Assembly: GCF_041381155.1 (NCBI RefSeq)
Contig: NC_091134.1
Span: forward strand, 69,172,469 to 69,236,468
Origin: Argopecten irradians
Taxonomy: Eukaryota; Mollusca; Bivalvia; Pectinida; Pectinidae
Length of the DNA stretch: 64,000 nucleotides
Direction: 5' to 3'
Part shown: positions 1 through 40,679 of the stretch, in pieces
How the letters are laid out: each line of letters starts with the position of its first letter
Position numbering within the stretch: position 1 is the first letter of the stretch
Notes under the pieces: generated by a model
Seen by the model: only the letters and a program-made list of their open reading frames with translations
Told to the model about the DNA's origin: nothing
Database searches by the model: none
Position numbers and translations under genes: made by a program

Positions 1-1137
1 TTCAAACACCTACAACAATAACATCAGAAAAATATCCAAAATGTCAGCAGTTCAAACATCTACAACAATAACATTAGAAAAATATCCAAAATGTCAGCAG
101 TTCAAACACCTACAACAATAACATCAGAAAAACGTCCAAAATGTCAGCAGTTCAAACATCTACAACAATAATATCAGAAAAACATCCAAAATGTCAGCAG
201 TTCAAACACCTACTACAATAACATCAGAAAAACATCCAAAATGTCAGCAGTTCAGACATCTACAACAATAACATCAGAAAAACATCCAAAATGTCAGCAG
301 TTCAAACACCTACAACAAAAACATCAGAAAAATATCCAAAATGTCAGCAGTTCAAACATCTACGACAATAATATCATAAAAACATCCAAAATGTTAGCAG
401 TTCAAACATCTACAACAATAATATCAGAAAAACATCCAAAATGTCAGCAGTTCAAACATCTACAACAATGACATCAGAAAAATATCCAAAATGTCAGCAG
501 TTCAAACACCTACTACAAAAACATCAGAAAAACATCCAAAATGTCAGCAGTTCAAACATCTACAACAAAAACATCAGAAAAAGATCCAAAATGTCAGCAG
601 TTCAAACACCTACAACAATAACATCAGAAAAATATCCAAAATGTCAGCAGTTCAAACACCTACAACAATAACATCAGAAAAATATCCAAAATGTCAGCAG
701 TTCAAACACCTACAACAATATCATCAGAAAAACATCCAAAATGTCAGCAGTTCAAACATCTACAACAATAACATCAGAAAAACATCCAAAATGTCAGCAG
801 TTCAAACATCTACAACAATAACATCAGAAAAATATCCAAAAATGTCAGCAGTTCAAACACCTACTACAAAAACATCAGAAAAACATCCAAAATGTTAGCA
901 GTTCAAACATCTACAACAATAACATCAGAAAAACATCCAAAATGTCAGCAGTTCAAACATCTACAACAATAACATCAGAAAAACATCCAAAATGTCAGCA
1001 GTTCAAACACCTACAACAATAACATCAGAAAAATATCCAAAATGTCAGCAGTTCAAACACCTACAACAATAACATCAGAAAAACATCCAAAATGTCAGCA
1101 GTTCAAACATCTACAACAATAACATCAGAAAAACATC
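1..1137. repeat. 50-bp minisatellite in the last visible PAAF1 intron
   Basis: About 22 head-to-tail copies of a 50-bp unit containing ATGTCAGCAGTTCAAAC fill the sequence from the window edge to six bases from the exon ending at 1144. Units differ by single bases such as ATC/ACC and CAATAA/CAAAAA. The array lies in the PAAF1 intron after exon 8. On the PAAF1 (minus) strand each unit carries a CTGAC branch-point-like word, then about 34 bases with no AG, then TTGTTGTAG. The short open frames here arise from the repeat (50 is not a multiple of 3) and are not genes. Confidence 0.95.
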
Positions 1138-1143
1138 CCCTAC

Positions 1144-4100
1144 CTTTTTGCGACTGTGTAAACCGTAGCCTTGTAAAGTTTTGTTCTCACAGCCCAGCAG
1201 GAGTAACTTCCCCTCTGTAAGGATTTCTCTGTCACCTGTAATCACACATATCATCTTTTGTAGGTACAATCTGTATCATTTTGATGGTCAAAGTAAATTG
1301 TAAAACGCTTTCTTATGTGGATATGAAGGAAGAAACCTGAAACCTGAAAAGGTGATGTAAAACCTCCGGCTTGTCGAGGGTTTTACAACATTTTGTGATC
1401 TTGAGGGTACTTTATATCCATATATGAAAGAGTATTTTACTTTCTTGCCTAAACGTTTTTTATTTTTAATTTTACAATTATGATATCTAGCCATTTTTAA
1501 ATAAAACTGTGACTGTAAGTCAATTATCCATTTGTGAAAATTGTGCAATTTTTTTAAGACACATCCCATTGTTTGCCTTCTTTATTATAGTTGATTATAG
1601 TAAAACTGACCTAGTTTCTAAAAACATGTTAAAAATGTACCAAGAAAATAGTAATTTGTTTACATATTAATGTCATGAGGTACATGTAATACTGAGATGA
1701 CATGAGTGTTTTGCATGGGATAAGAGAACAATATTAATTTGAACTATTTCATGTGCCCCTCTAGAGCCCCACTGAGACTCTAGAATACTATATTGTTGAT
1801 CATCACTATACAACATTTCAATGTTGGTTTGATCATTTTATTAGTGACGTCACAAATAACCTTTGAACCTGCCCATTTAAGTAAACAAGAGATCCCAGAG
1901 GGATCTTGGCGCCCACCAACAAATGATCTATGTCTGACAACAGAAAGAGGGATTTTTTCTCTGCTTTTCAAACTTTTACTACATACTTTATATGAAATTT
2001 GGTGGTGGGTTAAAAAAATTAAGGTCGGAAATCTAGATTTTAGTATGAACCTTGAAACCTGTCATTTTGAGGTAGACAGATATATGAATGTTCTCAATTG
2101 ATAGAGGATAAATTAGTAAAGGAAGGAAAGAGAGAGAGAAAGGTATTAAAAATAGCAATGATATAAAAACAAAAAACAAGTCCCATATGCAGGTTTTTGT
2201 CTCCAATGACTCTTTCGCAGTGACTACAAGGCAAGAACTTCTGCTTGATTTACATGAGTACTGTTAGTATTCATCATAAAATAGCAACAATTGGAAATCT
2301 AGATACAAACTGTTACAAAAACTTGTATATATTATTACATAGCTATCAAATACTGTCGGCCGTGACATATATGTTCCTAGAATATCTTCATTATTCTGAA
2401 ATCTACTCATCATAATGGCAGGACCAATAATGTTTTATTGAGATTTCATCCATCAACATGATTTCAAAAAATTCCCCTATATTTAATATAAGGACACAGT
2501 TACTGAGAGTGGCACAATTATTAAAGCTTTTACAAAGTGGGATTTTAGAAGTTTGATAGTTTTTTATTTCAGAAATTGTTTCTAATACACCAAAGTTATG
2601 ACAATTTTGTATCCAAGAAAATGTAAATGTTGAAGATTTTGTCCCACGCTGATATGACATGCATAGCCATTAGATAACAACTTTTGGTGAGTAGTAAGAC
2701 ATTATCAGCCATATATCTTAAGAAAAAGAGAATTAAACACATACTTGGTGGAGATTGTGGTTGTCCTAAATCACCACATGATTCAGAAGGAACTCCGATA
2801 CTACAGCAGTTCACCTCCCCACCACAGTCAGAGAATATCTTTAGACAGGTCTGCTGTCCTACGTCCCAGAGTCGCGCCGCACCGTCCCTTCCACAGGACA
2901 CGACATTCCGTCCACGATCAACAATGGCAGTATCTAGGATACCTAACACAGAACAACAGGATTACAGGTAGATATAGTTGATTGGCTAATCTGTTTAATG
3001 AGAAAGATTGTCAACAGTTTTTTTAACATATGACAAAAAGATACTGTAATCAACCCATTAAGTGAGTCGTAAGTCAATTTGCAAAAGAAATCAAATAAAG
3101 AAAACATTGGTTTCTTTATTTCGCGTCTGCATTTATTCAAGGTCAATGAAAATGAGGCATCTAAAACAGGTGCTTACATGGATGATGCCACTTATTTGGT
3201 CGAATATGGTAAGATTTCCAGAGAAATGTTGACTAACCTGCTCTGTGTCCGATGAGTGTGGCTCCACATTTGCCTGTCTCAGCTGACCAGATTTTGAGCT
3301 GCATGTCAGCACCCCCGGACAATACCACCAACCCCGAGGGGAAAAATCGACAGGTATACACATCGCCTAAGTGTCCTTCTAACTCTCTCTGCAATAATAG
3401 GGGAAGTAATACTCTAAGCTCCTGAATAAGGGGAGGTAATTGACACGGTTAAAAATGAAGGAGAGGTAAATGTTATAGATGTAGATTAAGGGGAGATAAT
3501 TGTCACTTCTATAAATTACAGGGAGGTAACTGTCATAGCTGAATAATGAGAGATTTCAGCTGCAGAGGCAATTGTCACAGCTGCAGATTAAGGGGATCAC
3601 AGGGACCTGGCACGAAAATTTTTAACCAATAGTATACATATATATATTATAGTATCAAGGGTATGAACTCGGTGGTCGAAAAAAATGGACCTATTTTTTA
3701 AAACCGTGATTATTTTAATAAATTGGTTCTATACAACATTGACGGATATGGTGGTGATGGTTAAAGCAAGTGAGCTACATGATGTTTAAATGGAGTTTCT
3801 ACAAAGTACGGGTCATGACACCTCCAAAGGAGATTGTGGATGAATACAGTTATGGGTACTGTTTACCACCACAAGCGTAGATTTTGTGATTTTGGCTTGG
3901 TTTTTGAGGTACCCATTAGAGCCAAGACAACATTTCGACCGGACAGGGAAATGTCTACCTAGCATATTTGACGTAAATTTCCCGATTCATCAAGCCATAA
4001 CTTCGTCAATACTTGGCCAATTTTGTTCATCAAGCACTCAATGGAAATATAAATTATTTCTCTTTAAGGTAAGATATCCGTCAATGTTGTATAGAACCCA

Positions 4101-6594
4101 TTTATTAAAATAATCACGGTTTTAAAAAAATAGGTCAGTTTTTCTAGACCGCCGAGTTCATACTCTTGATACTATAATATATATATGTATACTGTTAGTT
4201 TAAAAAAAATTGTGCCAGGTCCCTGTGAAGGGGATATAATCATTAAAGCTGAAGATCAAGGGGAGGTAATTGTCAAAGCTGTAGATTAAGGGGAGGTAAT
4301 TGTCAAAGCTAAAGATTAAGGGGAGGTAGTTGTCAAAGCTGAAGATTAAGGGGAGGTAATTGTCAAAGCTGTGGATTAAGGGGAGGTAATTGTCAAAGCT
4401 GTAGATCAAGGGGAGGTAATTGTCAAAGTTGAAGATCAAGGGGAGGTAATTGTCAAAGCTGTAGATCAAGGGGAGGTAATTGTCAAAGTTGTAGATTAAG
4501 GGGAGGTAATTGTCCCAATCTTATTAAAATTAGATTTTCTATGTCAATCTAATTAGATTGTAATTGACATAGCTGTTTATTAAGGGGAGGTATTTGTTAC
4601 CCTGGTATCGCCATTGCTTGTCTGCCAGATCCTCAGTTTGCCCAGACTATCAGCGGACACACCCAGCCCTCCTGGTGTTGTATCTATACAGGATATCTGA
4701 TATCAAAGATTAAACAGTTTTACTTTTCTAATCACACAAAATAAGAGTTCATGTAAGATTCAAGGAATATTGAAGATACATATACAAAGACATTATTTTT
4801 TTCATGATTCACAATGACACCTTGTTATGACTTTAAAATACTAACAATCTTTTATTGTAATTCTTTAAGCATTAAACTGCATTCATTGGAATTCATACCC
4901 CCATAATTACTAACTGAATGCAGTTCAATTCTATGAAGAAATCTTAGAGATTTTGAATTAAAAATTAAGGTATCCAAAAACAAGGAAGAGTAATTAATCG
5001 TTTGAACAGTCGTCTGCTGTGATTGATAGCATGACAATTGTGACGTCATGTTTGGGTTTAGTGTTTATTAGTTTAACATCCTATTAATAGCCACAGTCAT
5101 AAAGGATGTGCCAGGTTTGTTTGTGGAGGAAAGCCAGAGTACCCTGAGAAAAACCAACAACCAGCAGTCATTACCTGGCAACTTCCCCATATGGAATTCA
5201 AACTCATGACCTAGAGGTGGAGGGCTTAGGGTAATGTTGAGACATGTTAACCACTTAGCCCCGCGGCCTTGTGCTGTCACAATGATAATGACGTCATAAT
5301 AAGTGGATGACAGTTCATCGAATGATGAATGCCAACTGCTCTTGGTAGTGTTACATAGTGGGGCTGCACTAGAAATGTAACTATGTAAATCAAAGGTAAT
5401 ACATGCAATAATAACAAATATAAGCACATGTTTATGTCTACATAAAAAGAGTATAGTTGTAATGCAATCATACTCACCGTTTTCCCCAGTGTGTGTATAG
5501 TGGAGAAAGTGACTCGAGGAGCCAGAAATGTCCTGGTAAGATCTATAGAATCTATTCTGTATGTCACTGATATAGACTTCTGTAAGTAAAACATGAATGT
5601 ATGGTAAACTCAGTCAAACCAATGGAGAGAACAAAATTTAAAAGAACAATGAAAAAAATTCAAACATTTAATATGAAAAAACCACATCATTATAGAAATG
5701 TTTAAAATAAAAAATTTCAAAAACTTTGATATACAAAATGTAAATCTACAATTTTACGGTTTTAACAAAACCCATTTTAAACTTTTATTATACAAGTCTT
5801 GCAAGAGCCAAAAAAAGTACTAATTGTCATAAAATATGTAACCTTAGTAACTTCCTGCACAGCAAATCCGTCTGACCCTGTGACATACGGAATGCCTTCG
5901 GTGGAGACTCCTTGTGATGTTAAATTTCCCTGAGTACTCGGTGGTACTGTACAGAAGAAACATTTTATGTTTAATTTTAAAAAGGAAAGAGAGTACCGTA
6001 GATTTTCTAGTCAAGCTCAAAATTTAAACATTGTTAATTTGATCATAGTGAATGAAAATAAAGTAAAACAGTACAAGGTTCTACATGTAAAATACAGATT
6101 AATGTAATATCAAAAGCATATACATACATATAATACATGTTTCTGGAAATACATTGTATGTACATTTTGTAAATTTTACAATGTAGACTTGTTTTCCGAT
6201 ATACGGATAATACAAAATAAAATAAGAATTAGATCTTACAAATTTAGAATTTTGTTCCAGCAGAGTGTCATATAAAATCTAGATGCCCATCAATGAATTT
6301 TAGTATATGATAAAAAGCCAACAAACTACACGATACAATGAAATTATGAATCGTTCCTGTAAACAATATTGTCATAGTTAGTACCCTCACAGACAATATT
6401 TACCACTTACTTTCGGTTTTAAACGTTATCCATGTGGATTCGTTCGCTTTTCTGAAACACAAAAGACATCCCAAGTGATTATATATGAAAATATCACATG
6501 ACAAGTTCTAAATCCATAACTACACTTGTCATACATACCCCAACACTTGGTCCCAATCAGACTGCAAAATTAACCGTCCCATGGAGGCGGCCAT
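1144..6594 (-). CDS. PAAF1: PAAF1-like WD40 protein (proteasomal ATPase-associated factor 1), 3' end missing
   Basis: Eight coding exons are visible on the minus strand: 6594-6539, 6451-6411, 5946-5843, 5579-5478, 4696-4601, 3388-3238, 2942-2745 and 1235-1144. All have GT-AG borders and compatible phases, giving 840 nt or 280 codons. From memory, human PAAF1 is about 390 residues, so roughly 110 C-terminal residues lie beyond the left edge. The start MAASMGRLILQSDW matches the family's N terminus. Later segments are equally recognisable: FFPSGLVVLSGGADMQLKIW, ILDTAIVDRGRNVVS and RDGAARLWD, the last two being WD-repeat blades. In other animals PAAF1 binds proteasomal ATPases and restrains 26S assembly in cytosol and nucleus; that role is inferred here from similarity. 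Two introns and the 5' flank are dominated by minisatellites. No coding defect is visible in the exons seen. Confidence 0.93.
1236..2744. other. PAAF1 intron 7, no gene seen
   Basis: This intron separates the exons at 2942-2745 and 1235-1144. It begins with GTATGTGT and ends with GATTACAG on the minus strand. It is AT-rich. I see no tandem array and no convincing coding region; the small open frames match nothing I recognise. Confidence 0.8.
3389..4600. repeat. 30-bp minisatellite filling PAAF1 intron 5, split by a MITE
   Basis: A 30-bp unit (plus strand AAGGGGAGGTAATTGTC, then AAAGCTGTAGATT) recurs from about 3391 to 3597 in diverged form and from 4228 to 4600 in well-conserved form, with a hAT-like MITE between. 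The array reaches both splice sites. The donor at 4600 (GTAACAAATACCTCCCC on the minus strand) and the acceptor at 3389 both align to repeat units. On the PAAF1 strand each unit reads TTTGAC, then the pyrimidine-rich ACCTCCCCTTAATC, then TACAG. Confidence 0.92.
3598..4227. mobile_element. hAT-like MITE, 630 bp, with 8-bp target-site duplication
   Basis: Ends are inverted repeats beginning CACAGGGACCTGGCAC and stay inverted for about 150 bp with some mismatches. Both flanks carry AAGGGGAT (3590-3597 and 4228-4235). The host 30-bp repeat normally reads AAGGGGAG, so the shared final T supports a true 8-bp duplication. There is no coding capacity. The 8-bp duplication and CA(C)AGGG ends suggest the hAT superfamily; the assignment is an inference. 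Confidence 0.85.
5056..5276 (-). mobile_element. tRNA-derived SINE in PAAF1 intron 4
   Basis: Read on the minus strand, it starts with a tRNA-like head (GGCTAAGTGGTTAACATG, an A-box-like word) followed about 50 bases later by GAGTTTGAATTCC (B-box-like). It ends with a body close to a common bivalve repeat, finishing AATAGGATGTTAAACTAATAA. It lies between the exons at 5579-5478 and 4696-4601 and looks old, with both promoter boxes diverged. Confidence 0.75.
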
Positions 6595-6675
6595 TTTGGT
6601 GATTATAAAGTTAGAGACATTGTGACGGTCCGGAATATAATCCGTACGCATCTGTATCAGGTGTTCAGCTAAACT

Positions 6676-7235
6676 TTATAGACAGGTATTGGTTACATAT
6701 ACAGTTGACCTTTATAGACAGGTATTGATGGTATATACATATGTGGCCTTTACAGACAGGTATTGGTGTTATCTACATGGTGGCCTTTATAGACAGGTAT
6801 TGGTGTTATATATATATGTGGCATTTATAGACAGGTATTGGTGTTATATACAGGTGGCCTTTATAGACAGGTATTGGTGTTATATATAGGTGTCCTTTAT
6901 AGACAGGTATTGGTGGTATATACATATGTGGCCTTTATAGACAGGTATTGATGGTATATACATATGTGGCCTTTATATACAGGTATTGGTGTTATATACA
7001 TATGTGACCTTTATATACAGGTATTGGTGTTATAAACAGGTGACCTTTATAGACAGGTATTTGTGTTATATATATATATATGTGGCCTTTATAGACAGGT
7101 ATTGGTGGTATATACATATGTGGCCTTTATATACGGGTATTGGTGTTATATATAGGTGTCCTTTAAAAACAGGTATTGGTGTTATATACAGGTGGCCTTT
7201 ATAGACAGGTATTGGTAGATATACTAGTTCAGGAT
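6676..7235. repeat. ~37-bp minisatellite upstream of PAAF1
   Basis: About 15 copies of a 27-43-bp unit (core CTTTATAGACAGGTATTGGTG, then a variable ATATACATATG stretch) begin about 80 bp upstream of the PAAF1 ATG. Read in the PAAF1 direction, most units contain TATAAAGG, a TATA-box-like word. The array could sit in the promoter or in a 5'-UTR intron (see 7386-7456). Confidence 0.9.
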
Positions 7236-7385
7236 ATTTACCCCTTGGAGGTGGTAATCAACACATGTAGATTACACCATCTCGGGTTAGATAATATGAA
7301 CTAAAGCACAGTAACCCATGAACTATTTGTGTAATAATTTATGTAGGTGTATAGATCGGGGTAGAGACTCAGAACATTGACTTAC

Positions 7386-7456
7386 CTGCGGTTTCTGTGT
7401 TTGACAGTCCTGACTGATTACATGTGGGAATCCTATGGAAGCGCGTTACTGACAAA
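7386..7456 (-). other. Possible non-coding 5' exon of PAAF1
   Basis: On the minus strand there is a perfect donor, CCGCAG followed by GTAAGTC, with its last exonic base at 7386. A possible acceptor-like CTTTGTCAG lies about 70 bases upstream. An acceptor candidate, CCTGATACAG, sits between the minisatellite and the PAAF1 ATG. Together they suggest an untranslated exon joined across the 6676-7235 array. There is no coding evidence, so this is tentative. Confidence 0.3.
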
Positions 7457-7769
7457 GACTAAATCAAATAGAAACAGAAAATTGCTTTGCTCAAAAGGCA
7501 CGAAATCCTCAAAGTTTTGAAATAATATGCTAAAGAAATTAATATTCGAATTAAGAAAAGGACTTATTTCAGAGTCCAGTCTTACCAACATTCCAAACTT
7601 TAAGGTTCATTCCTTAACCGGAAATTCTCCATAAGAAAGCATTACAGAAGTTAAATGCTTTCCTATGCATGAGTAATTTTATGTAAAGGAAATTCTTTAA
7701 AGTAAGTGATAGAAATTCTTAAAGTTAATAGATGTTCGTGAAATAGGATCCTGATAATTTTTATCTGTC

Positions 7770-7895
7770 TATCCGGATCACAGTGACCCAGTGGGTAAGG
7801 CGCTATTTACCAATATCCCTTTACTTATAGACCAAAGTTCGAGTCTCTTCTATAGCAGTGGCCTGGAACTAACCGTCGGTCGATGGGTTTTCATC
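7770..7895 (+). mobile_element. tRNA-derived SINE fragment
   Basis: GTGACCCAGTGGGTAAGGCG resembles a tRNA A box and AAAGTTCGAGTCTC about 50 bases downstream resembles a B box. The following text, ending in CGATGGGTTTTC, resembles bodies of mollusc tRNA SINEs. It is not a functional tRNA gene: the spacing is irregular and no cloverleaf closes. Confidence 0.5.
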
Positions 7896-8143
7896 GTAAA
7901 ATTTGTAACTTCCGCTATATTGAGGTCAGGGGTTATATTCTCGTTCTGTTCCTCTTCTGTTACATTTATCGCAAAAATAATTATAGACAGTAATACATTT
8001 ATATTAGATTAGAAAAGAAACGTTTAGTGACATTTTCGGTCCGTATTTTAATGATTCTCGATTCCAAATCTGCACTAACTACATAAGAAGTATGCGATCT
8101 TCAATAGTTCAAATCAATCCGTCTTGACTGCCCCTTTGGGCTC

Positions 8144-8160
8144 CCATATATTATATGCAG
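8144..8160 (+). promoter_or_regulatory. TATA-like element upstream of GALNT copy 1
   Basis: CCCATATATTATATGCAG lies about 65-75 bp before the start codon at 8219, a plausible TATA position for a short 5' UTR. The neighbouring GALNT copy has a comparable element at a similar distance. Confidence 0.35.
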
Positions 8161-8218
8161 TCGGACCCGTGTCTGACAGTCATATTATTGTAGGGACGTT
8201 AGTTCAAACATTTTAAAT

Positions 8219-9970
8219 ATGGTCGGGCTCTGGAAGAGATCTGTCCATAAAAAAATTAAGATCATTCTCGCTGTGGCCTTGGTGGTTGGCATGGCGCCGG
8301 TTTTGTTCCGGATTAACAAAGACACCAGTGTATCGGTGATATCCGGAGATATCCCTCCCCGGGACCCCATTGCTGTCACAGGTATTGGAAAATCAGTGGA
8401 AAATCGGAAGCAGCCATCAGACAACAGTTTTGAAATAGATGAACCAACCGAAAGAAAGCTTTACAGTTATTCGGACATTATCAAGGACTTTAACATTTCC
8501 CTATACAAGGACATAGATCCATCTCGCTTCTTTGTTAACGTTACCAAAACTCACGAGACGTCAGTGAACAGGAAAGTATTGGACACACGTCCTGGGGAAT
8601 GTGCCTCGATTGTATACAAGCTGACGTCACTTCCCGCTGCCTCCATAGTAATACCAGTCTATAACGAGCCATGGTCGACGCTGGAGAGGCTCCTTAACAG
8701 TGTAATCAACAATTCCCCTAAACTGCTTCTACACGAAATCATCATCATAGAAGATCAGAGTAACTTAGAACATCTTGGGGCTCCATTTGATAAATATGTG
8801 GAGCAATTCTCTTTCATGCATCTCCATAGAACAAAAGAAAGATTAGGAACAATGAAGACAAGAGTGTTGGGTACTGAGTTGGCTAAAGCGGACGTAGTTG
8901 TTTTCTTGGATTCACATACGGAAGTTAATATCGGCTGGCTTGAACCCTTACTGTTCGAAATAAGTCAAAACAAAACTGCAATCGTGCAACCATCAACTGA
9001 TGTTGTGGACGCACAAACATTCGAATATCGGAAGTACTTTGATAACAATATGAGAGGCCATTTTAAATGGAATATGGCTTATCATTTTGTCCCATTACCC
9101 CCAAAGCAAATGGAAGAGGTTAAAGCACAGCCAACCAAATCTTTCGACTCTCCCGCCATTGTAGGGTGTGCGTTTGCAGTGAACCGGAAGTACTTCCTTG
9201 ATATCGGAGGACTTGATACGGGCATGCGCACTTGGGGCGGAGAGGACGTAGAGCTGTCTATCAGAGTTTGGCTTTGTGGCGGAAGTATGAAAATCTCACC
9301 GTGTTCTCGTGTTGGTCATATTTTCAAAATAGACCATCCTTTTAAATGGGATTATAGCGAGCTTGTGTCCAACAACAGACGCACAGCTGAGATGTGGCTC
9401 GGTGACTACAGGAAATATTTCTACTATTTCAATGCTGGATTTGCAAAACCTCCGAATGATTCAGATAAATTTGATATCATGGATCCAATCAAAAAGAGAT
9501 TTAAATGTAAAGACTTCAGTTGGCTCATTCGGAACGTTTTCCCCGAGCTTGAAGTCCCACCGGAAGGTGCTATATATTTTGGAACGCTGCGTAAGGAGAA
9601 TTCCGGATGTTTCAGTCCATCTGATACAGAGAAACTACAATCATATCCTTTACTAGCTCCTGCCGATTGTTTTTTGTACTACAAGGCAAGGAACTTTGCT
9701 CTGCTTGAAAACGGCCGTTTAATGATCGACGGCAAATGTGTCAATGTAAAGAAGGACTCGCTGGTAGTGGGCCCCTGTAGATCTGGGGTCGCCAAGTGGA
9801 GTTACAAAGACAAGCTACTAATGTATACCAATGGAAAAGGCTCTAAATGTGCAACACAGGCGTTCAAGGGCGATAACTCCAAGAATGTGCAGATCATAAA
9901 ATTAATAGCATGTGAAAGTTCAAGCCAGGTGTCAAAGTGGGAGTTTGGTAATAAAATATTCAAGGACTAA
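8219..9970 (+). CDS. Polypeptide N-acetylgalactosaminyltransferase-like protein, copy 1 (GT27, intronless)
   Basis: A single open frame of 583 codons encodes a typical GALNT layout. Residues 1-12 are cytosolic and basic, about 13-30 form a signal anchor (IILAVALVVGMAPVLF), and 31-100 are a stem. A GT-A catalytic domain spans roughly 120-410 and a ricin-type lectin region roughly 448-583. Family landmarks present are IVIPVYNEPWSTLERLL (143-159), the metal-binding DSH (231-233), WGGEDVELSIRVW (339-351) and PCSRVGHIF with His367. The family transfers GalNAc from UDP-GalNAc to Ser/Thr, starting mucin-type O-glycans in the Golgi. The sequence is divergent: HTEVNIGW follows DSH where vertebrate enzymes have HCECN, and the UDP-contact segment reads RLGTMKTRVLG. 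It has a diverged tandem partner at 15323-17779. The exact isoform cannot be assigned. Confidence 0.92.
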   Translation: MVGLWKRSVHKKIKIILAVALVVGMAPVLFRINKDTSVSVISGDIPPRDPIAVTGIGKSVENRKQPSDNSFEIDEPTERKLYSYSDIIKDFNISLYKDIDPSRFFVNVTKTHETSVNRKVLDTRPGECASIVYKLTSLPAASIVIPVYNEPWSTLERLLNSVINNSPKLLLHEIIIIEDQSNLEHLGAPFDKYVEQFSFMHLHRTKERLGTMKTRVLGTELAKADVVVFLDSHTEVNIGWLEPLLFEISQNKTAIVQPSTDVVDAQTFEYRKYFDNNMRGHFKWNMAYHFVPLPPKQMEEVKAQPTKSFDSPAIVGCAFAVNRKYFLDIGGLDTGMRTWGGEDVELSIRVWLCGGSMKISPCSRVGHIFKIDHPFKWDYSELVSNNRRTAEMWLGDYRKYFYYFNAGFAKPPNDSDKFDIMDPIKKRFKCKDFSWLIRNVFPELEVPPEGAIYFGTLRKENSGCFSPSDTEKLQSYPLLAPADCFLYYKARNFALLENGRLMIDGKCVNVKKDSLVVGPCRSGVAKWSYKDKLLMYTNGKGSKCATQAFKGDNSKNVQIIKLIACESSSQVSKWEFGNKIFKD

Positions 9971-10211
9971 TGACACAACAAAATATCGAGCGCAAACGAA
10001 TGAATCTGGTCATATCGTACAAATTTTATCCTGAACGAGGTCTTGATGAATTTCTCATATATAAATGCGATCATAAAGTACACCGATGTAATCACCACCT
10101 GTGTGACACCTGTATGCTACAATGTCTAGTTATCTTAGCTTTCGATCACATTAGTCTGTGTGAGAGTATTTTATTCATGCACGTAAAACCCCGGATAGAA
10201 TCATTTCTTTA

Positions 10212-10217
10212 AATAAA
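10212..10217 (+). terminator. Polyadenylation signal for GALNT copy 1
   Basis: AATAAA lies about 240 bp after the stop codon at 9970, with a T/G-containing stretch following. It is the first canonical signal downstream of this gene. Confidence 0.5.
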
Positions 10218-10635
10218 ATCTACCTTTATCAACTAGTAACCAATTTGTGTTTGATTTCCGCAGTCAGTGGTGTTTCTGCCTTTTATCCGATCATCTCAGC
10301 AATTCCCGACAAAAGATTCGATATGAATAAAATCCATGAGTAAAATTACCTCAAGTTTTAATTTGCGTTTGCGTCAACAAAGAAAGTTACCTGGTTACAG
10401 TCATTTGTTGTACGTTCGCATGTGGTAAGATTTAATCCAATCTATTAAAATTATATCTTCTATATGTCGCTTCCCGTACAACCTTAGAAAAATGTGCGGC
10501 AATCTTCGGAAGGCTAAATCAGAAGCAATCCTTTGATAACCTTGGTGTAACTCACTCTGTTTCCACAGAAACAATCTTTGGATATTTCTATTAGTCCGGT
10601 GGCTTATGTAACACGTGATGAAGTTTGACACCTTA
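10218..10635. other. Intergenic, no gene seen
   Basis: Unique AT-rich sequence between the GALNT copy 1 polyadenylation signal and a TIR element. I recognise neither coding potential nor repeat structure here. Confidence 0.7.
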
Positions 10636-13355
10636 TATCAAAATGTTCTGTAGGCCACCCTCTTTCAAAAAACGATGGTGTCAATTTTTTTTTTGACCAT
10701 GTGGAGGGGTCAAAGTTCAAATGATTTATAAGCTGAAAAACGGCAAAAAACTGGCGGGAGTGAGATTATATTTTGACATTTAGAGCCCATAACTTGATTT
10801 TTCTTCTTCAATATATGCCATATGTATAATTTATTCACTAATGACTTTTTTGTTAGTTCATAATGGGAAATTAAAAAGGTCAGATGGAATAACGGTCAAA
10901 GGTCATATTAGCTAGTTTCTTTCATACCCAAATGAAATCAAAACATAGTGACATCAATGCTTACATATATTACAACAAAGTATTGAAAATTAAGTGTCAA
11001 ATGTACAAAAATATACAACATATGAATGATTACTCCATTACAGGGAAATCTATCAAAATTAAACCCCCTAGCAACTGATTTTATATCCTAGCAACCGAAA
11101 ATCAATCTTCATTTCGACCACAAAAAACATACCTTTTCAAAACTAAATTTCTTGGAAACGCAGCAATAGTTGGTATTGAACATCATATCAATGTTATGGC
11201 ATAAATCTGCGCTTAAAAATCGTCAAATAAAAATCCGTAGCAGGCATCTCTTTTTTTGTCAAATTACCAATCAAAATATGCTGTTCTCATAACTTTTTAA
11301 AAAAGAATTTTAGCATGTTTTTTTCCTATATTTCATATATATTATGCCAAAAAAATAAAATTATGTGCCAAGTTTACAAAAATATATCACATATGGATGA
11401 TAGCCCTATTACAGGCGATTTACTTAGAAAAGTATCAAAATTAAACCCCCTAGCAACTGATTTTACACCCTAGCAATCGAAAACCAATCTTCATTTTGAC
11501 CACAAAAACAAACCTTTTCAAAAGTAAATTTCTTGGAAACGGAACCGTTATTTGGTATTGAACATCATATCAGTGTTATGATATATATATATATCTTTGC
11601 TAAAACTTCATGAAATAAAAATCAGTGTTCAGGCATCTATTTTTTTTTTAATTATCAATAAAAAAAATGCTGTTTTCATTACTTTCAAGAAAAGGATTTT
11701 AGCATATTTTTACGATATTTCATAAACCGGTATATTATGCAAAATATGGAAAATTAGCTGCCAAAAATATACATGTATTACATATGGGTGATAGCCCCAA
11801 TACAGGTGATTTGTTTAGAATTTGGTCAAAATTACACCTCCCTAGTAACTGGTTGTATACCTTATCAAACCCTGAAAGTATAGCACCCGTCAACAATGGA
11901 TGGAAAATGGAACTCTAGTGCCTGTGATGACAATGTGTACCGCTGAATCCGACGGGATATATGCATATGCATATTAAGTGTTATTACCATTACGATAATG
12001 TGCAAAGAATACGTAACTAGTATGTCGATTTTCTAAAAAGAGTTTCAAATATTTGACAGATGGGAAAAATAGGACACAAATCATAGTTCCAGTTTTCCAT
12101 AAAATGACCCAAGATTTTCCTTATAAAAATGTTTCAAGAACTCATTTCTCTAAAGATATATTGAAACATTCTCTTACAAACTTATTTGTGCCGATGCAAA
12201 AAGAATAAAAGGTATTTTACTTTAAAACTTACGTTTCTGGTTACCAAGGCTCCATTATTATTGCATATTTGACCATGAGAACTTTGACCCCTAACCATGA
12301 TCCTACCGCATGATCGAACAATTGACGCTCCATTTACAGATATTGTTAAATATTATTTACAAGTGAAAACGAATTAAATCCATGGCAACCAAATGTTCCT
12401 CCATTGTTTAATGTCCATGGTGATCGCTATTGAAGGATGTGATATGTCAAATTATAGACATATATCAGTTACAGTAATTGACAAAGTTTAAACATATTTG
12501 ATCCAAGAACTAATGAGTTATTGGCCATTTTACAAAACTTGTGTATAGTGACCAGGTTACCATGGCAACCATTATGTCAACAAATGAAAACCTGCTTGCT
12601 CATCTACACATGTTCTTCAACATTACTGTGAAGATAAATTGATATTGGACCAGTATTTCAAGAGTTTTCCGGAGTTATGTTGTTTGAGGTTTTTTTTTTC
12701 TTTCTACAAAAGACCCAAACATTGCTTCAAGTTTCAATGAAGTTAGAGTTACTTGAAAACAATTTTCTTGTAAAAGACAGAAATACAGACAGACAGACAT
12801 ACAGGCAAGTCAATATTCAATATAAACACACACACCCCTTGCCACTGAACTCTTTTTTGTTGGGCGGATAGGGGTGGGGTATAGCGATGTTTTGAATTTA
12901 TATATTACATTTTCAAAAGGCATTCTTCAGATAATTCTTAAGTTTTTTTCAATGTGTCTGAACTAACATAAAACATTGATTAAACCATTTCGGGGAAAAG
13001 ACTGATTTAATAGTGTTTATTAACTAATTATGTGTATAACAAGAAAATGACTGTTATTTAACTTGCCCTCAGTTTTCCCTAAAATGACCAAAACTGATAT
13101 TGTTTTGGCGATATTTTGACAAAATATTTATCTTAAAGTATTATAAAACATTCCACTATACATAATTAGGATACTTAATGTTAGAATCATAGGGAAAAAA
13201 GGGTGATCTACCTTGAAGTTCGGGCTGCCAAAGGAGGTATTATTGCATATTTTACCATATGACATTTGACCCCTAACTTTGACCTCACCACATGGTCAAA
13301 AAAATTGACACAATCATTTTTTCCGAAAGAGGATGGCCTACTGAACATTTTGATA
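10636..13355. mobile_element. 2.7-kb TIR element with internal ~380-bp tandem repeats
   Basis: The two ends are inverted copies. The left reads TATCAAAATGTTCTGTAGGC and the right, reverse-complemented, TATCAAAATGTTCAGTAGGC. Similarity continues for more than 100 bp, including AATTTTTTTGACCATGTGG. From about 10920 to 11880 a unit of roughly 375-390 bp is repeated almost three times, marked by ATTACAGG, CCTAGCAACTGATTTTA and TTTCTTGGAAACGCA. No transposase frame is visible, so this looks non-autonomous. A second copy at 42013-46865 shares the left part. The target duplication is unclear, possibly TA. Confidence 0.7.
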
Positions 13356-13439
13356 TACGTATGGTGTCAATCTTCATCACGAAATGCCCACGGAACCCCC
13401 AAAACCCGACATAAGCCACCGGACTATATCGGGAGATTT

Positions 13440-14165
13440 AAGTTGAAAGCTGTTAATATGAATTACCTTGACCTTGACATGTATTCAAGGTCACACGGCC
13501 CAAAACACATGAACTCCTCAAATTACTTCTTGTGAAGTTTTAGAAGGCCTAGAGACCCAATATTAGGCATGTAGCATGCTGACATAAATGGCTACCAAGT
13601 TTGTTACTACGAATGACCTTGACCTTTACTGAAGGTCAAAGAAGCAAAAAAAAACACTAAAATCTTCAAACGACTTCTTGTGAATTTCTGGAAGGCCTAG
13701 AGACCTTATACAAGGCTTTCATTTCTGGTCACAGGGACAAAAACACAACTAAAATCTTGAAACGAATTCTTGTGAAGTTCTAGAAATGCATAGAGACCTT
13801 CTATTAGGCCTGTAGCATGAAAAAGTCTAGAGACCTGATATTGGGTCTGCGGTATGTTGAGATAAAGGGCTAGCAGATGTGTTAATTTGGATGACTTACA
13901 CCTTCATCTACGGTAACAAAGGCCAATTAACCTAAAATCTTTAATCAACTTCTTGGCAAGTTCTGAAAGGTCCAAACTAAAGACCGGATATTGGGCCTGT
14001 AACATGCTGACACAATAGGCTACCAAATTTGTTAATATGAATGACCATAACTTTCATTCATGGTCACATAGACCAAAAAACATCAAATCTTAAAAGTACT
14101 TCTTGTCAAGCTCTGAAAGGCTTAGAGACCTCATATTGGACCTGTAACATGCTGAGATAAATGTA
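13440..14165. repeat. ~146-bp tandem repeat (about five degenerate units)
   Basis: Successive units begin with GTTAATATGAATGACCTTGACC-like words at about 13456, 13602, 13881 and 14029. They also share CTTCTTGTGAAGTTCTAGAAG and GCCTAGAGACC. Units are diverged and spaced at about 146 bp or twice that. No coding frame is evident. Confidence 0.75.
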
Positions 14166-14578
14166 GCCGCTCACCTATGCGGTCCACATCATGTTTTTTT
14201 TCTAAAAAGTATTCTGAAATTAAAAAAAAAAAACTAATCATAAAAGCCATTTTAAGCGTGCCAATTTCCGCTATATAAGTGTAAGTGTTTAGGTTTATTA
14301 TTTCATTCACAAACAGAGCTTCACTGCAAAGAGGTATATAAGGTATGTTCTGTGTCGTGCAAAAAAGGCAAATCTTATCTTGACTGTAATTCTTTGTTGG
14401 CTAAAAGCCTGTCAAATTGTCCAATGACAATTTTTTTACGTGATAAAGTACATGTGCCTTTCTTAGTTTACGTGTGTGTATAAATATATTCACCTGTAAT
14501 ACACATGGTCTTACGATCGATTGCCGATCACGTGTATGGAAACTCAACATCACCCTCCAAGAAGGGTCATACACGTCG
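14166..14578. other. Intergenic, no gene seen
   Basis: AT-rich unique sequence between two tandem arrays. An 89-codon minus-strand frame at 14401-14670 runs into the next minisatellite and matches nothing known. Confidence 0.7.
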
Positions 14579-15040
14579 GAACATATCAGCAAATTCCAGT
14601 AATTCTCAGAATTAAAAGTCAGAACATCTTGGCAAGTTCCAGTAATTCTCGTAATTAAAAGTAGGAACATCTTGGCAAGTTCCAGTAATTCTCGGAATTA
14701 AAAGTCGGAACATCTTGGCAAGTTCCAGTAATTCTCGGAATTAAAAGTCGGAACATCTCGGCAAGTTCTACTAATTCTCGGAATTAAAAGTCGGAACATC
14801 TCGGCAGGTTCCAGTAATTCTCGGAATTAAAAGTCGGAACATCTCGGCAAGTTAATTCTCGGAATTAAAAGTCAGAACATCTTGGCAAGTTCCAGTAGTT
14901 CTCGGAATTAAAAGTCGGAACATCTCGGCAAGTTCCAGTTATTCTCGGAATTAAAAATCGGAACATCTCGGCAAGTTCGAGTAATTCTCTCGGAATTAAA
15001 AGTTGGAACATCTCGGCAAATTCCAGTAATTCTCGGAATT
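14579..15040. repeat. 43-bp minisatellite upstream of GALNT copy 2
   Basis: About 11 copies of a 43-bp unit containing AATTCTCGGAATTAAAAGTC and GGAACATCTCGGCAAGTTCC, one of them shortened. The array ends about 280 bp upstream of the GALNT copy 2 start codon and could influence its promoter. Confidence 0.95.
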
Positions 15041-15237
15041 CACAATGTACCGTGCGTTTTAACGCTAGATTTCGCGTACCTGTGGTAACATCTACATGTT
15101 GTTATTTGTAAATTAATTTACTTCGGCTGAAGGAATATTACATACAAGTAAATGTGACTATATATATTTCTAAATAAATGTTTACAAAAGCCAGATTAAC
15201 GTACACAGAAACAAATCTATTTTTAGGCCGGTATGAC

Positions 15238-15254
15238 CTTCCATATATATATGG
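15238..15254 (+). promoter_or_regulatory. TATA-like element of GALNT copy 2
   Basis: CCATATATATATGGCATG lies about 75-80 bp upstream of ATG 15323. No ATG occurs between the expected start site near 15275 and that codon, which supports ATG 15323 as the start. Confidence 0.4.
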
Positions 15255-15322
15255 CATGGGCCGAGCCACACGTGCGACAGTACGCCAACCGTTGTTTACA
15301 CCCGACAGTTCTCTCCGTGACC

Positions 15323-17779
15323 ATGTTCCCCAGAAAGTTACGCGTGGTCCTGATGCTGGCTGCCATGTTCATGTGGACGTCCGTCATCGTCTGGGTAACC
15401 AAAACACAACAAGAAAATTCTCGGGAAGATGGCAGTCTGTTCGAAAAATTGCCGTTTTCCTGGTACTTCCGGTTCTGACCATGAATTGAGTACATGAACC
15501 TATGCGTTTGTTTACGTTAGAAATAATTCAATAGTGAAATTTACATTATATAATATAGTTCAAGATCATCATAAGAAGTCACGGATTTAAAATATAACTA
15601 TATAATTAATTTTTCTTTGTTTTCATACCAAATCTGGCTTTCTGATTGGCCAATATTTTTTTTTTGCATACCACTATGAAAAAAAAAATCCGAGAATGGC
15701 GCGAAACCCCGACGTTATCGTGACGTCACAGTAGAGACATTGACGTTGCGTATTGAAAAAAATTGTTTGCAAACTTTTATTCACACAGTTTGCAAACAAT
15801 TTTTTTTCATACCCCGATAAAATTAAAAAATAGTGACATCGATGCTTAAATGAAGCATGCTAGTATTTATATGTATTTTGTAAAAGCAAAATCGACCGCT
15901 ATCATCATACATATGTATGTTCACAATCCAATTGGTATTTTTGTGTTTTTTTTTATAATTATGGTACACGAATTAGGATAGCTTTATACCAACTGCTTAT
16001 GAGGTGAATCTTTTGAAAACATGGTTTATCAGTAATCCTTTGTTTGGTTTCATTTCTAGTGTTATGATACAGATTAATTCTGAAATAAATCGACAGTAAA
16101 TTCACTTTCATTTCACTTAACTTATAGGGAACACGAATTTGACAAAGACATGGATAGAAGATTCACAGCTTTGGAACGAAACGCGCGACAGAAAAATGTT
16201 GACAAAGTGCTCCATACAAAGAATGAACTAGGCCCAAAGGGTAACGATGTGGGGAATCCTAGAGAAAGTTTTTCTGCTATCATCCAGAGTTTTGGCATGT
16301 CTTTATTCAAATACACAGACCCAGCTCGGTTTTTCGTCAACGTTAACAAATCTCACGAGATATCTGGTTCTCGTGAAGTACCAGATACACGACCTGACGA
16401 GTGTGCATTAATTCATTACAATGTTTCGTCACTTCCTGTGGCTTCTATCGGGATACCGTTACATAACGAACCCTGGTCAACTTTCGAGAGACTAATTAAC
16501 AGTGTCCTGAAACACTCGCCACTCTCTCTTATTCGCGAAATCATTATCATTGACGACCTGAGTGATTTGGAACATTTGGGGGCTCCTTTGGACAAATTTG
16601 TAGACCAATTCAACTTTATGCGAATCTATAGGGCGAAAGAAAGGCTTCTTGGAACTAAGGTCTCAAGTGCTGACGCAGTGGTTTTCTTGGACTCGCACAC
16701 AGAGGTTAACGTTGGCTGGCTGGAGCCTCTACTATACGAAATAGGTCAGGACAAAGCTTGCGTCGTTCAGCCTTCAATAGATACAATTAACTCCGAAACA
16801 TTTCAATACAAACGATATTTCGCTAATGATTTAAGGGGCCATTTTCAGTGGAGTATGGCTTACACGTTTGTACCCCTTACACCAAAACAAAAAGCGGAAT
16901 TGGCTGCCAATCCAACCAAAGCATTCGATACCCCCGCCATTGTAGGATGTGCGTTTGCGGTAAACCGGAAGTACTTCCTTGATATCGGAGGACTTGATAC
17001 GGGCATGCGCACTTGGGGCGGAGAGGACGTAGAGCTGTCTATCAGAGTTTGGCTTTGTGGCGGAAGTATGAAAATCTCACCGTGTTCCCACGTTGGTCAC
17101 ATTTTTAAAGCAGGGCATCCATTTAAAATGGATTTTTCCGATCTTGTGTACAATAACAGACGCACGGCTGAGATGTGGCTCGGAGACTACAGAAAATATT
17201 TTTATTATTTTAATAATGGCCTTGTGAAGCCCCCCCGAACCGTCTGAAAAATTCGAAATAATGGATAAAATCAAGGAAAAATTCAAATGTAAAGACTTTG
17301 GATGGTTTCTACAAAACGTTTATCCCGAACTGGAAGTTCCTCCAGAAGGAAGCGAATATTTTGGACACATGCGTAACATTGGTTCCGGATATTGCTTTGG
17401 CCCTTCGGATACTCCCGTCCTTGGATCTTATCGTATCTTAGTATTAGGGGACTGTTTCCTTTACTACCATGTTCGGAATTTTGCCCTTCTTGGAAATGGG
17501 CGCCTTATATTGGACGGGAAATGTATAGAAGTAGAGAGAGGTTTCCTTGTTGTTGCGCCGTGTACTCCCGGAAGTGGTAAGTGGGAGCTGAAGAGGAAGT
17601 TACTGCACTACACGGATGATGTTGGTACTAAATGTGCCATGCAAGTTGTGAAAACAATCAACTTGGTAGAAACAGCAGTTGCCATGGTTTTGTCTTGTGA
17701 TGATTATGACTTAAAATATGCGGAATGGGAAATTGGTACAAAATTGTACAAAACTAAGGAATCATGGGAAACAAATTAG
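15323..17779 (+). CDS. Polypeptide N-acetylgalactosaminyltransferase-like gene, copy 2 (two exons, frameshifted)
   Basis: Exon 1 (15323-15462) encodes a type II anchor, MFPRKLRVVLMLAAMFMWTS onward. A GT donor follows codon phase 2 and an acceptor TTATAG precedes 16128, where the frame continues as EHEFDKDMDRRF. The splice restores a TGG codon, but the donor (GTACTT) is weak and needs RNA support. Exon 2 carries the GT27 catalytic domain with VFLDSHTEV, WGGEDVELSIRVW and PCSHVGHIF, then the lectin region. A run of seven C at 17230-17236 breaks the frame; the same protein continues in another frame from about 17240 to 17779. Relative to copy 1 it lacks seven residues (GTMKTRV) just before DSH. 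It could be a recent pseudogene, an inactive enzyme, or an intact gene with an assembly error in the C run. A 125-bp block (16963-17087) is identical to copy 1. Confidence 0.78.
15752..15814. repeat. Hairpin-forming inverted repeat in GALNT copy 2 intron
   Basis: Arms of about 24 bases, AAATTGTTTGCAAAC and its complement extended by A/T runs, flank a 13-base spacer (TTTTATTCACACA). It may be the core of a small MITE-like insertion spanning about 15620-15835, but I cannot place its ends. Confidence 0.6.
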
Positions 17780-18614
17780 CTAAATGTATAGATATACAAC
17801 TGAATTAGTATAAATTATAATTTTATTTTCTCATCAAGTCGGTTTTAGGTGTATTTTCTTTTTTTTTTTTTTTTTTTTTAATGTTTGTGTATCTATTATT
17901 ACATTGATGTATTTAGGTCCCAGTTAGAAAGGACCAGTAAAATGTAACATTAGAACTTAGAACAGTAATTTTATGGCAACTGTGATTGGCAAACTCTGTC
18001 ATACTCTCGCCAGTGTAGACTATAACCTTTGACATTTCCGTCAAGTTGTATTCTGTCGGAAATTCCAGAGGATGTTCCGATAATGGACAAGGTTACAGTT
18101 ATATACTAGGCCAATGTACGATATTATCGAATGTTTCCGCTGGTATGCTGGCGGCCTTTTGTTCCATTATATCAATTATTTTATGTAAACACTGAACTAG
18201 CTGTTATTTTCCTAGATTCAATTGTAGACCATTATTATTTTCCAAAGATATCTCATATCCAGCATGCTGTTCAGTTTACCGTCTATATCAAACATGGAAG
18301 CCGGCTCCTGTTATAAATATTATTGAATCACGCGGTATTACCTGGTAGTAGCGATTGTTGTCCAATTTGAATAATGAATCTCCGCTTAAGTTGACGTGTG
18401 CATTAGGTAGCGCGCGATGGTCCAATTCCGGTCCATACCAGACATACATGTATTATATGACCTTGTTAATGGGCTGGAGTCAATACCATTCTTAGTGACT
18501 AAAATGTATCTATTTTATCTCCATAATAAAAAAAAGATAGCATCATCGATTCATTTTCACTGAATAATGAATAGTTTCTATTTAAAAGATTAAAAAATAC
18601 TGAATGTATTTCAT
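17780..18614. other. Intergenic, no gene seen
   Basis: Follows GALNT copy 2. It contains a T run of about 20 bases near 17860 and otherwise unique AT-rich DNA. No canonical AATAAA lies close after the stop, and no further gene is apparent. Confidence 0.7.
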
Positions 18615-21600
18615 AGGGTCTTACTACAATACTATCATTACCAGGGAGTCACTACAATACAATCATTACCAGGGGGTCACTACAATACAATCATTACCAG
18701 GGGGTCACTACAATACAATCATTACCAGGGGGTCACTACAATACTATCATTACCAGGGGGTCACTACAATACAATCATTACCAGGGGGTCACTACAATAC
18801 TATCATTACCAGGGGGTCGCTACAATACTACCATTACCAGGGGGTCGCTACAATACAATCATTACCAGGGGGTCACTACAATACTATCATTACCAGGGGG
18901 TCGCTACAATACAATCATTACCAGGGGGTCACTACAATACTATCATTACCAGGGGGTCGCTACAATACTATCATTACCAGGGGGTCACTACAATACAATC
19001 ATTACCAGGGGGTCGCTACAATACTATCATTACCAAGGGGTCGCTACAATACAATACAATACAATCATTACCAGGGGGTCGCTATTATACAATCATTACC
19101 AGGGGGTCACTACAATACTACCATTACCAGGGGGTCACTACAATAAAATCATTACCAGGGGGTCGCTACAATACAATCATTACCAGGGGGTCGCTACAAT
19201 ACAATCATTACCAAGGGGTCGCTACAATACAATCATTACCAGGGGGTCACTACAATACTATCATTACCAGGGGGTCACTACAATACAATCATTACCAGGG
19301 GGTCACTACAATACAATCATTGCCAGGGGGTCGCTACAATACAATCATTACCAGGGGGTCACTACAATACAATCATTGCCAGGGGGTCGCTACAATACTA
19401 CCATTACCAGGGGGTCACTACAATACAATCATTACCAGGGGGTCACTACAATACTATCATTACCAGGGGGTCACTACAATACAATCATTACCAGGGGGTC
19501 ACTACAATACTATCATTACCAGGGGGTCACTACAATACAATCATTACCAGGGGGTCACTACAATACAATCATTACCAGGGGGTCACTACAATACAATCAT
19601 TACCAGGGGGTCGCTACAATACAATCATTACCAGGGGGTCGCTACAATACTATCATTACCAGGGGGTCGCTACAATACAATTATTACCAGGGGGTCGCTA
19701 CAATACAATCATTACCAGGGGGTCGCTACAATACAATCATTACCAGGGGGTCACTACAACACAATCATTACCAGGGGTCACTACAATACTATCATTACCA
19801 GGGGGTCACTACAATACAATCATTACCAGGGGGTCGCTACAATACTATCATTACCAGGGGGTCGCTACAATACAATCATTACCAGGGGGTCGCTACAATA
19901 CAATCATTACCAGCGGGTCGCTACAATACAATCATTACCAGGGGGTCACTACAATACTATCATTACCAGGGGGTCACTACAATACTATCATTACCAGGGG
20001 GTCACTACAATACAATCATTACCAGGGGGTCGCTACAAACAATTATTACCAGGGGGTCGCCACAATACAATCATTACCAGGGGGTCGCTATTATACAATC
20101 ATTACCAGGGGGTCGCTACAATACAATCATTACCAGGGGGTCACTACAATACAATCATTACCAGGGGGTCGCTACAATACTATCATTACCAGGGGGTCAC
20201 TACAATACAATCATTACCAGGGGGTCGCTACAATACAATTATTACCAGGGGGTCACTACAATACAATTATTACCAGGGGGTCGCTACAATACAATCATTA
20301 CCAGGGGGTCGCTACAATACTACCATTACCAGGGGGTCACTACAATACAATTATTACCAGGTGGTCACTACAATACAATCATTACCAGGGGGTCGCTACA
20401 ATACAATCATTACCAAGGGGTCGCTACAATACAATCATTACCAGGGGGTCACTACAATACTATCATTACCAGGGGGTCGCTACAATACAATCATTACCAG
20501 CGGGTCGCTACAATACTATCATTACCAGGGGGTCGCTACAATACTATCATTACCAGGGGGTCACTACAATACTATCATTACCAGGGGGTCGCTACAATAC
20601 AATCATTACCAGGGGGTCACTACAATACTATCATTACCAGCGGGTCGCTACAATACAATCATTACCAGCGGGTCGCTACAATACTATCATTACCAGGGGG
20701 TCGCTACAATACTATCATTACCAGGGGGTCGCTACAATACTATCATTACCAGGGGGTCGCTACAATACAATCATTACCAGGGGGTCACTACAATACAATC
20801 ATTACCAGGGGATCGCTACAATACAATCATTACCAGGGGGTCGCTACAATACAATTATTACCAGGGGGTCACTACAATACTATCATTACCAGGGGGTCAC
20901 AACAATACTATCATTACCAGGGGGTCGCTACAATACAATCATTAGCAATGGGTCGCTACAATACAATCATTACCAGCGGGTCGCTACAATACAATCATTA
21001 GCAGGGGGTCACTACAATACTATCATTACCAGGGGGTCACTACAATACAATTATTACCAGGGGGTCGCTACAATACAATCATTACCAGGGGGTCACTACA
21101 ATACAATCATTACCAGGGGGTCACTACAATACAATCATTACCAGGGGGTCGCTACAATACAATCATTACCAGGGGGTCGCTACAATACTATCATTACCAG
21201 GGGTCGCTACAATACAATCATTACCAAGGGGTCGCTACAATACTATCATTACCAGGGGGTCGCTACAATACAATCATTACCAGGGGGTCGCTACAATACA
21301 ATCATTACCAGGGGGCGCTACAATACAATCATTACCAGGGGGTCACTACAATACTATCATTACCAGGGGGTCACTACAATACTATCATTACCAGGGGGTC
21401 ACTACAATACTATCATTACCAGGGGGTCGCTACAATACAATCATTACCAGGGGGTCGCTACAATACAATCATTACCAGGGGGTCGCTACAATACAATCAT
21501 TACCAGGGGGTCACTACAATACTATCATTACCAGGGGGTCACTACAATACTATCATTACCAGGGGGTCACTACAATACTATCATTACCAGGGGGTCGCTA

Positions 21601-30774: not shown

Positions 30775-30932
30775 TAGGGATTGGATTTCGTTTTTATGTT
30801 AACCATGCGTGTATGGAGCAATTCCTCTAAGAATATATTCTATGGGGCGCGTTAGCGCCCCATATTGAATATATTCTTAGAGGAATTGCTCCATACATGC
30901 ATGGTTAACATAAAAACGAAATCCAATCCCTA
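30775..30932. repeat. 158-bp near-perfect palindrome
   Basis: Arms begin TAGGGATTGGATTTCG and CGAAATCCAATCCCTA and match almost throughout. The centre GGGGCGCGTTAGCGCCCC is itself nearly palindromic. It should extrude as a long hairpin. It forms one end of the inserted element. Confidence 0.95.
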
Positions 30933-34740: not shown

Positions 34741-35395
34741 TGTAGTATAACAATGCCTTGAAATGGAAATTTAATTTAAAGATTTACGTGAAAGTAAGCT
34801 ATATATAATTTGATAATTTGATTGACCAATGTGAATATGTCTTCAGGCAGTTGATTCAGGAACATCGTCTAAGAATTAAGCCCATATAGGAAGTTAGTTC
34901 ATATTTAGGAAGTTGTTATTGAATCATTGCCTGACATAATTTTAGGAAATCATTACCTTTACGCCATTCCTGCTTCCTGGTATCGAATATATAAGAGACT
35001 CGAGATATTCTTTTAACACACTCTACACTCTACACTCTACACTCCATAGACACTCTACACTCCACAGACACTCCGGACACAACATACACTACAGACATGA
35101 CACACTTCACACCAGGACAGTTATGAAGATACCAACACTAGGAAGCATGGAAATAATTTTGTACATGTATTTTAGTAGACGGAGAAGTTATGATTGTAAT
35201 TCCCGTCAGGATGTATAGGACTATATGGTCCTTTATCCACTGTACTAAATATGCATATGGAACCAAATAAAAACCATGCAACTGAAAATCAACGCCTCCA
35301 TCATCATTCAACTCATTCAACTACAACGACATGAACATCACAAGCAACATCAAGCCTTCCAACTATATTTTAAAAGAAAAAGACATTTCATTATA
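34741..35395 (+). repeat. 5' LTR
   Basis: Contains a TATA-like word GAATATATAAGAG near 34986 and then a short CTCTACACT tandem near the expected transcript start. AATAAA follows at about 35265, giving a conventional U3-R-U5 order. Confidence 0.75.
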
Positions 35396-40358: not shown

Positions 40359-40679
40359 AATGCAATGCTTCACTGCTTTATTGAAACTATACTGTTTGTT
40401 TTTTTATTTTTTACACTTTAACACATTAGATGGAGTTTGACTTCTGTCGGTGAATACATTAAGGTACATTTACCATATTACATTAAACAAAAAAATCCTT
40501 ACGAACGACCTATATAGGCTATATTGTTGTGGTTACACTCTTTTGTAGCCGTTTGAGCGTCTTCGCACAGCCCAAATGACATGGCAACCGATTTACTTGA
40601 GATACTTAATCCTTGGTTTTAAATTGCAGTAACAGAAATATCGACTTAATTAGGTAGTTCCATCCTGTGGATTTGGTTG

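Follow-up and report, generated by a model that had tools for sequence, protein, structure and literature searches.

A 30-bp minisatellite fills an intron of a PAAF1-like gene and overlaps its homology-inferred acceptor

An intron of a PAAF1-like gene consists, from donor through acceptor, of a 30-bp minisatellite interrupted by a 630-bp hAT-type element. The minisatellite is real, both in filling the intron and in overlapping the inferred acceptor, and its anatomy, register, splice-site scores, reading frames and insertion were observed directly. To account for its origin we propose, as the probable course of events, that a dispersed genomic word seeded an intronic minisatellite, which came to fill the intron with its last, worn unit overlapping the acceptor. 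The intron lies in a 64-kb window (the whole stretch of DNA analyzed) within contig C1; genome-wide counts refer to a genome of 846 Mb in 1,508 contigs. The coordinates of the features are collected in Table 1.

Table 1. Features of the intron and its surroundings, in window coordinates.
Feature	Position	Strand	Basis or detail
Intron of PAAF1-like gene	3389..4600	-	GT 4600-4599, AG 3390-3389; 1212 nt; intron number 4 or 5
Upstream exon, 96 nt, phase 0 end	4601..4696	-	tblastn with human PAAF1
Downstream WD-repeat exon; donor GTTAGT follows	3238..3388	-	tblastn match 3391-3236; boundary from sequence
Donor-side array part	4228..4600	-	uniform units 4245-4514, AT-rich insertion ~4513-4566, then donor-reaching unit
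Uniform array part	4245..4514	+	nine TRF copies, 30-bp period, 92% matches
Putative hAT-type MITE, inside one unit	3598..4227	.	630 bp; long inverted ends starting CACAGGGACCTGGCAC; 8-bp target duplication
Target site duplication AAGGGGAT	left 3590..3597, right 4228-4235	+	sequence
Acceptor-side array part, worn	3389..3597	-	12-bp slip between 3548 and 3590
Terminal unit with homology-inferred acceptor	3389..3418	-	20/30 to unit consensus
Competing candidate acceptor TTATTCAG/GAG (slash, junction), second-last unit	3422..3423	-	score 10.7; 33 nt upstream of 3389, in frame
Unit 3′ end, gene strand			pattern TTTGACAATTACCTCCCCTT..CAG

The gene was delineated by tblastn with a sequence of human PAAF1, which matches minus-strand exons at 67% over 52 residues, 57% over 67, 55% over 33 and 52% over 33. 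Beyond the exons that flank the intron, further upstream exons were placed at 5941-5843 and, by a weak match, at 5543-5490, and the most 5′ exon was located by eye. Because three upstream exons are thus found by tblastn and a first by eye, the intron may be number 4. The junction protein, NGDTR/RELEGH, aligns without gaps to the human protein. WD40 repeats were detected in the gene by Pfam, and the 60 matches listed (of 543) from a search of the PDB are WD-repeat proteins or contain them; PAAF1 does not appear by name among the Pfam and PDB matches listed. An Rfam scan of window positions 1-9000 at gathering thresholds gave no match. The borders that the earlier note on this DNA had assigned to the intron are exact. 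The acceptor at 3389 is nevertheless a putative one, so that the repeat unit overlaps a splice junction placed by protein homology alone.

The repeat has the structure of a minisatellite, i.e., head-to-tail 30-bp units with worn copies further out: its middle is uniform and both its ends are worn. The core of the unit, AAGGGGAGGTAATT on the + strand, is exact in 8 of the 9 copies delimited by TRF, with one mismatch in the ninth, and forms a pyrimidine tract on the gene strand. The 30-mer that ends at 3389 is in register with these units; it matches their consensus at 20 of 30 positions, and is identical to the 14 other in-register units at 14 to 20 positions. None of the 125,222 other 30-mers of the window outscores or equals it, one tying on identity, and none of the 1,759 among them that end in CAG reaches 20/30. 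By part, the match amounts to 11/13 in the core complement, 5/8 before the core and 4/9 after it, and TTTGAC is absent from this terminal unit. At the other end of the intron, a donor-side unit (4602-4573) matches at 23/30, with the similarity beginning at intron base 2. The earlier note had placed both the donor and the acceptor within units of a single array; both placements hold, that of the acceptor without gaps, although the identity of the acceptor unit is 20/30 rather than 21/30, and the units do run from donor to acceptor but are split by the hAT-type element at 3598-4227. Unit similarity of this extent, with little left over except insertions, would also fit an intron that had itself been made by a repeat, in the manner of an introner. 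However, the similarity ends at the exon, whose 30-mer beside the acceptor matches the unit at only 6/30, and to our knowledge core arrays elsewhere are not known as introns. We consider this origin highly improbable.

The 630-bp element begins CACAGGGACC, is flanked on both sides by AAGGGGAT, and leaves the register of the array preserved across it. With its first 160 bases as query, 40 non-self matches were scored out of 1,909 candidates, and 39 of these begin at base 1; their identity is 95-97% in 39 and 87% in one. Two pairs of matches, on opposite strands and less than 1 kb apart, are probably the two arms of single elements. Given the 8-bp duplication, the inverted ends and the dispersed copies with a common terminus, we interpret the sequence at 3598-4227 as a hAT-type MITE that recently entered one of the units. 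Its class, which we take from the 8-bp duplication and the ends, agrees with the features of hAT MITEs, namely an 8-bp target duplication, CAGGG-type ends and many near-identical copies; no difference from them was seen.

Read on the gene strand, the array resembles a series of 3′ splice sites. Eight units, from 4488 to 4249, are clean. TTTGAC is present in all of them, ACCTCCCCTTAATC in four, GATC in four and TACAG in three; seven end in AG, and one, ending at 4429, in AA, its AG having been lost. The word TTGAC lies 24 nt upstream of the AG position. Thus, of the elements that had been ascribed to each unit, the branch-point-like word is constant, while the tract and TACAG are not; the absence of any AG between branch word and acceptor does hold in the clean units. 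Sites were scored with a vertebrate matrix, which may not fit the host species. By this measure the seven clean-unit AGs score 4.6-8.1, six of them 7.3-8.1, and the inferred acceptor scores 7.9, seventh among the 45 AGs of the intron. The six AGs above it are three in clean units, those at 3581 and 3422 in worn units, and one at 4223, on the right edge of the hAT-type element, which has the best score in the intron (11.7). Two other acceptors of the PAAF1-like gene score 2.5 and 5.6, and the 95th percentile of the 876 same-strand AGs in window positions 1-20000 is 6.4.

These scores were compared with those of shuffled units. In plain shuffles (n=5,000), 6% reach the AG score of the unit and 2% that of its complete site; when the core is held fixed, these fractions become 17% and 5%. 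Because shuffles do reach the scores of the unit, and do so more often with the core fixed, the splice-site likeness that the earlier note had proposed exceeds chance, but marginally, and much of it is due to the core. We considered whether core arrays resemble splice sites in general, and rejected this: among 16 other core units, read on the pyrimidine strand, five have an AG that scores at least 7.3, and none has a complete site as good as that of the intron unit.

The choice among these AGs has different consequences for the protein. Each of the seven clean-unit AGs meets a stop after one codon, because each unit continues CTT TGA. Stops follow after one codon at 3581, 3539 and 3509, after 8 codons at 3560 and after 16 at 4223, and four AGs (3422, 3419, 3414 and 3412) reach the next exon without a stop. 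The array part contains nine GTs on the gene strand, including the donor, and none is in the uniform units; since these units lack GT, they cannot pair into pseudo-exons. As a separate observation, the uniform array is open in one frame on the minus strand (4203-4520) and would translate there into NYLPLIYSFD-like repeats of 10 residues.

Site strength does not explain a choice of 3389, since the AGs at 3422 and 4223 both score higher. The first of these is a competing candidate. It is preceded by 84 AG-free nucleotides, with TTAAC 27 nt upstream and no AG in between, and its use would add 33 nt, i.e., 11 in-frame, stop-free codons that encode ELRVLLPLLLQ. If 3422 were the main acceptor, with 3389 minor or unused, the protein would be longer by these 11 residues, and the account of the array proposed above would be unaffected. 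The score of 10.7 versus 7.9, the spacing from the previous AG and the open frame all point this way. Against it, human PAAF1 has no insertion at this position, the scores come from a vertebrate matrix, and a hydrophobic insert next to a WD repeat would probably be unwelcome. We therefore treat 3422 as a possible main acceptor, though a doubtful one. Because this AG looks stronger and keeps the frame, the statement of the earlier note that only the last AG is genuine is unproven. Exon definition and nonsense-mediated decay (NMD) are established mechanisms; together they would mask misuse of the clean-unit AGs, without deciding between 3389 and 3422. The intron thus offers a natural example of several near-equivalent candidate acceptors within one intron, in which RNA could reveal how selection is made. 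Three classes of junction are predicted: at 3389, at 3422, and at clean-unit AGs followed by an immediate stop.

On the opposite strand, the pyrimidine tract of the intron unit reads GGGGAG(A/G)TAA, specifically GGGGAGGTAA, a word that is common genome-wide. There are 6,758 copies of GGGGAGGTAA, compared with 1,290 of its reversed control (5-fold), and 15,814 of GGGGAGATAA, compared with 702 (22-fold). Same-strand pairs 5-35 apart number 891 versus 96 in the control for GGGGAGGTAA, and 1,719 versus 32 for GGGGAGATAA. By our own count from the pair listings, the roughly 100 GGGGAGGTAA pairs listed represent at least 26 loci across ~167 Mb, while the 96 control pairs, listed completely, come from 10 loci genome-wide. 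The core arrays have unit bodies that differ from locus to locus (e.g., L070, L071, L088, L101 and L103), with periods of 16 to 45 bp in pair searches that allowed 15 to 45, and up to 51 bp by TRF. By extrapolation, hundreds of arrays genome-wide would carry the core. Searches of the literature for GGGGAG(A/G)TAA, covering the motif, repeats, SINEs and introns, gave no relevant title among the matches listed.

The genome is rich in arrays where it was sampled. The window holds 16 TRF arrays with periods of 14-100, some of which have a common unit, and one of the 16 has the core; elsewhere, the core is found in 0 of 13 TRF arrays in loci L072-L086 and in 4 of 14 in twenty loci chosen for unit similarity. 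Two arrays of the window (28837-34740 and 38375-40359) have one common 32-bp unit, and TRF reports one 18-bp repeat at both 35032-35073 and 37999-38040; a larger duplication is the likely source of both pairs.

The core could also be an active signal for duplication or recombination at which arrays are born, similar to the human minisatellite core, a view that is compatible with seeding by a dispersed word. Array loci make up 4/29 and 3/61 of the listed core loci, compared with an estimated 11/1,180 for the reversed control (Fisher p 0.0003 and 0.03); the core is thus over-represented in arrays and could do more than seed them passively. Changing position 7 from R to Y (GGGGAGYTAA) leaves 56 pairs in 17 loci genome-wide, by a complete listing. 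GGGGATRTAA pairs occupy at least 4 loci of C1 among the matches listed, one of them huge, compared with at least 9 in C1 for GGGGAGGTAA and, among the roughly 100 GGGGAGATAA pairs listed, at least ~22 within the initial 37 Mb of that contig; by pair count, however, GGGGATRTAA is also high (631 versus 195 for its own control). Nor is the core much better conserved within arrays than the unit body, with means of 0.91 and 0.88 and a higher value for the core in 15 of 20 arrays (p 0.012). This comparison started from 26 loci, six of which proved unusable, having either too few complete copies or a consensus that lacks the core; to reduce ascertainment, as many as three copies with the exact core were taken out of each array, and either A or G was accepted at position 7. 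These values speak against a maintained function, and selection on the core within arrays, which was also considered, was rejected as weak.

Dispersal of the word, moreover, is partly ordinary, as 4 of 20 isolated GGGGAGATAA sites match a 167-bp, TA-flanked MITE of locus L127 (E <0.001). We also considered, and rejected, the idea that the core belongs to a single dispersed repeat: apart from these four sites there is no long common flank, and pairwise blastn of the 20 isolated contexts finds no exact common stretch longer than 18 bp, core included. The MITE itself (L127, 201-367) has ends GACTGGCCACCAG, lies within another tandem array and carries the core word near its centre. Separately, C3:65212263-65230502 and C6:45115779-45131898 contain copies of AAGGGGAGGTAATTTTAAAAA, mostly ~1745 bp apart, with an opposite-strand core between them; these stretches are a large tandem repeat that carries the core. 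Taking both sides together, we regard an active role of the core as conceivable but not as the expected outcome. The fuller proposal, in which GGGGAG(A/G)TAA is a sequence-specific core where duplication starts, hundreds of arrays arose independently at it, and one of them swallowed an intron whose acceptor it now supplies, is put forward as equally tentative. A short word common to many unrelated arrays reopens the question of whether minisatellites arise at specific sequences.

A point that counts against the origin from a dispersed word is that the AG of the unit coincides exactly in register with the inferred AG, as it also would if the array had grown from the acceptor. The earlier note had suggested such growth, with the intron's own branch point, pyrimidine tract and acceptor being duplicated again and again to form the array. 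The acceptor AG at the AG position of the unit, within a 20/30 match unbeaten in the window, speaks for this idea, as does the rarity of equally good complete sites in plain shuffles. On the other hand, the core word, found again in many unrelated arrays, explains the pyrimidine tract. Once the core is set aside, the acceptor unit agrees with the consensus at 9/17 positions, the AG being obligatory, and it lacks the branch-point-like word. Since both ends of the array are worn and its middle is uniform, there is no sign that it grew from its acceptor end. With scores close to those of shuffles, the suggestion is not supported as stated. The array may have grown out of the acceptor, but nothing requires such growth and it is unproven; we judge it unlikely.

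The origin that we favor, from a dispersed word, would involve the following steps. A 30-bp piece containing the word (+ strand, AAGGGGAGRTAAYT; gene strand, TTAYCTCCCCTT) would have been duplicated in tandem, and unequal exchange may then have homogenized the middle units while the ends decayed. Insertion of the hAT MITE into a unit would have come later. At the exon end, the final worn unit overlaps the inferred acceptor, with the core complement presumably acting as its pyrimidine tract. Splicing would most likely occur at the AGs closest to the exon, that is, at 3389 and perhaps also at 3422, as exon definition would favor the acceptor nearest the downstream donor. Transcripts spliced at clean-unit AGs, with TGA one codon past the junction, would be expected to undergo NMD.

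Two known systems invite comparison. Jeffreys' human minisatellite core is a short, G-rich sequence common to arrays with differing unit bodies. GGGGAG(A/G)TAA is likewise short, G-rich and found in arrays with differing bodies; the two core sequences differ, however, and the likeness is one of composition and of occurrence among arrays. The nearest precedent for the intron is the minisatellite of human IFI6 (6-16, G1P3), whose repeat units act as splice sites according to the account in PMC4526556, which cites Turri et al. 1995. Here, too, a repeat unit overlaps a splice site, although a putative one. In that account the IFI6 minisatellite multiplies donors, and RNA shows use of downstream units (PMC4526556), whereas the array described here multiplies candidate acceptors, recognized from the DNA.
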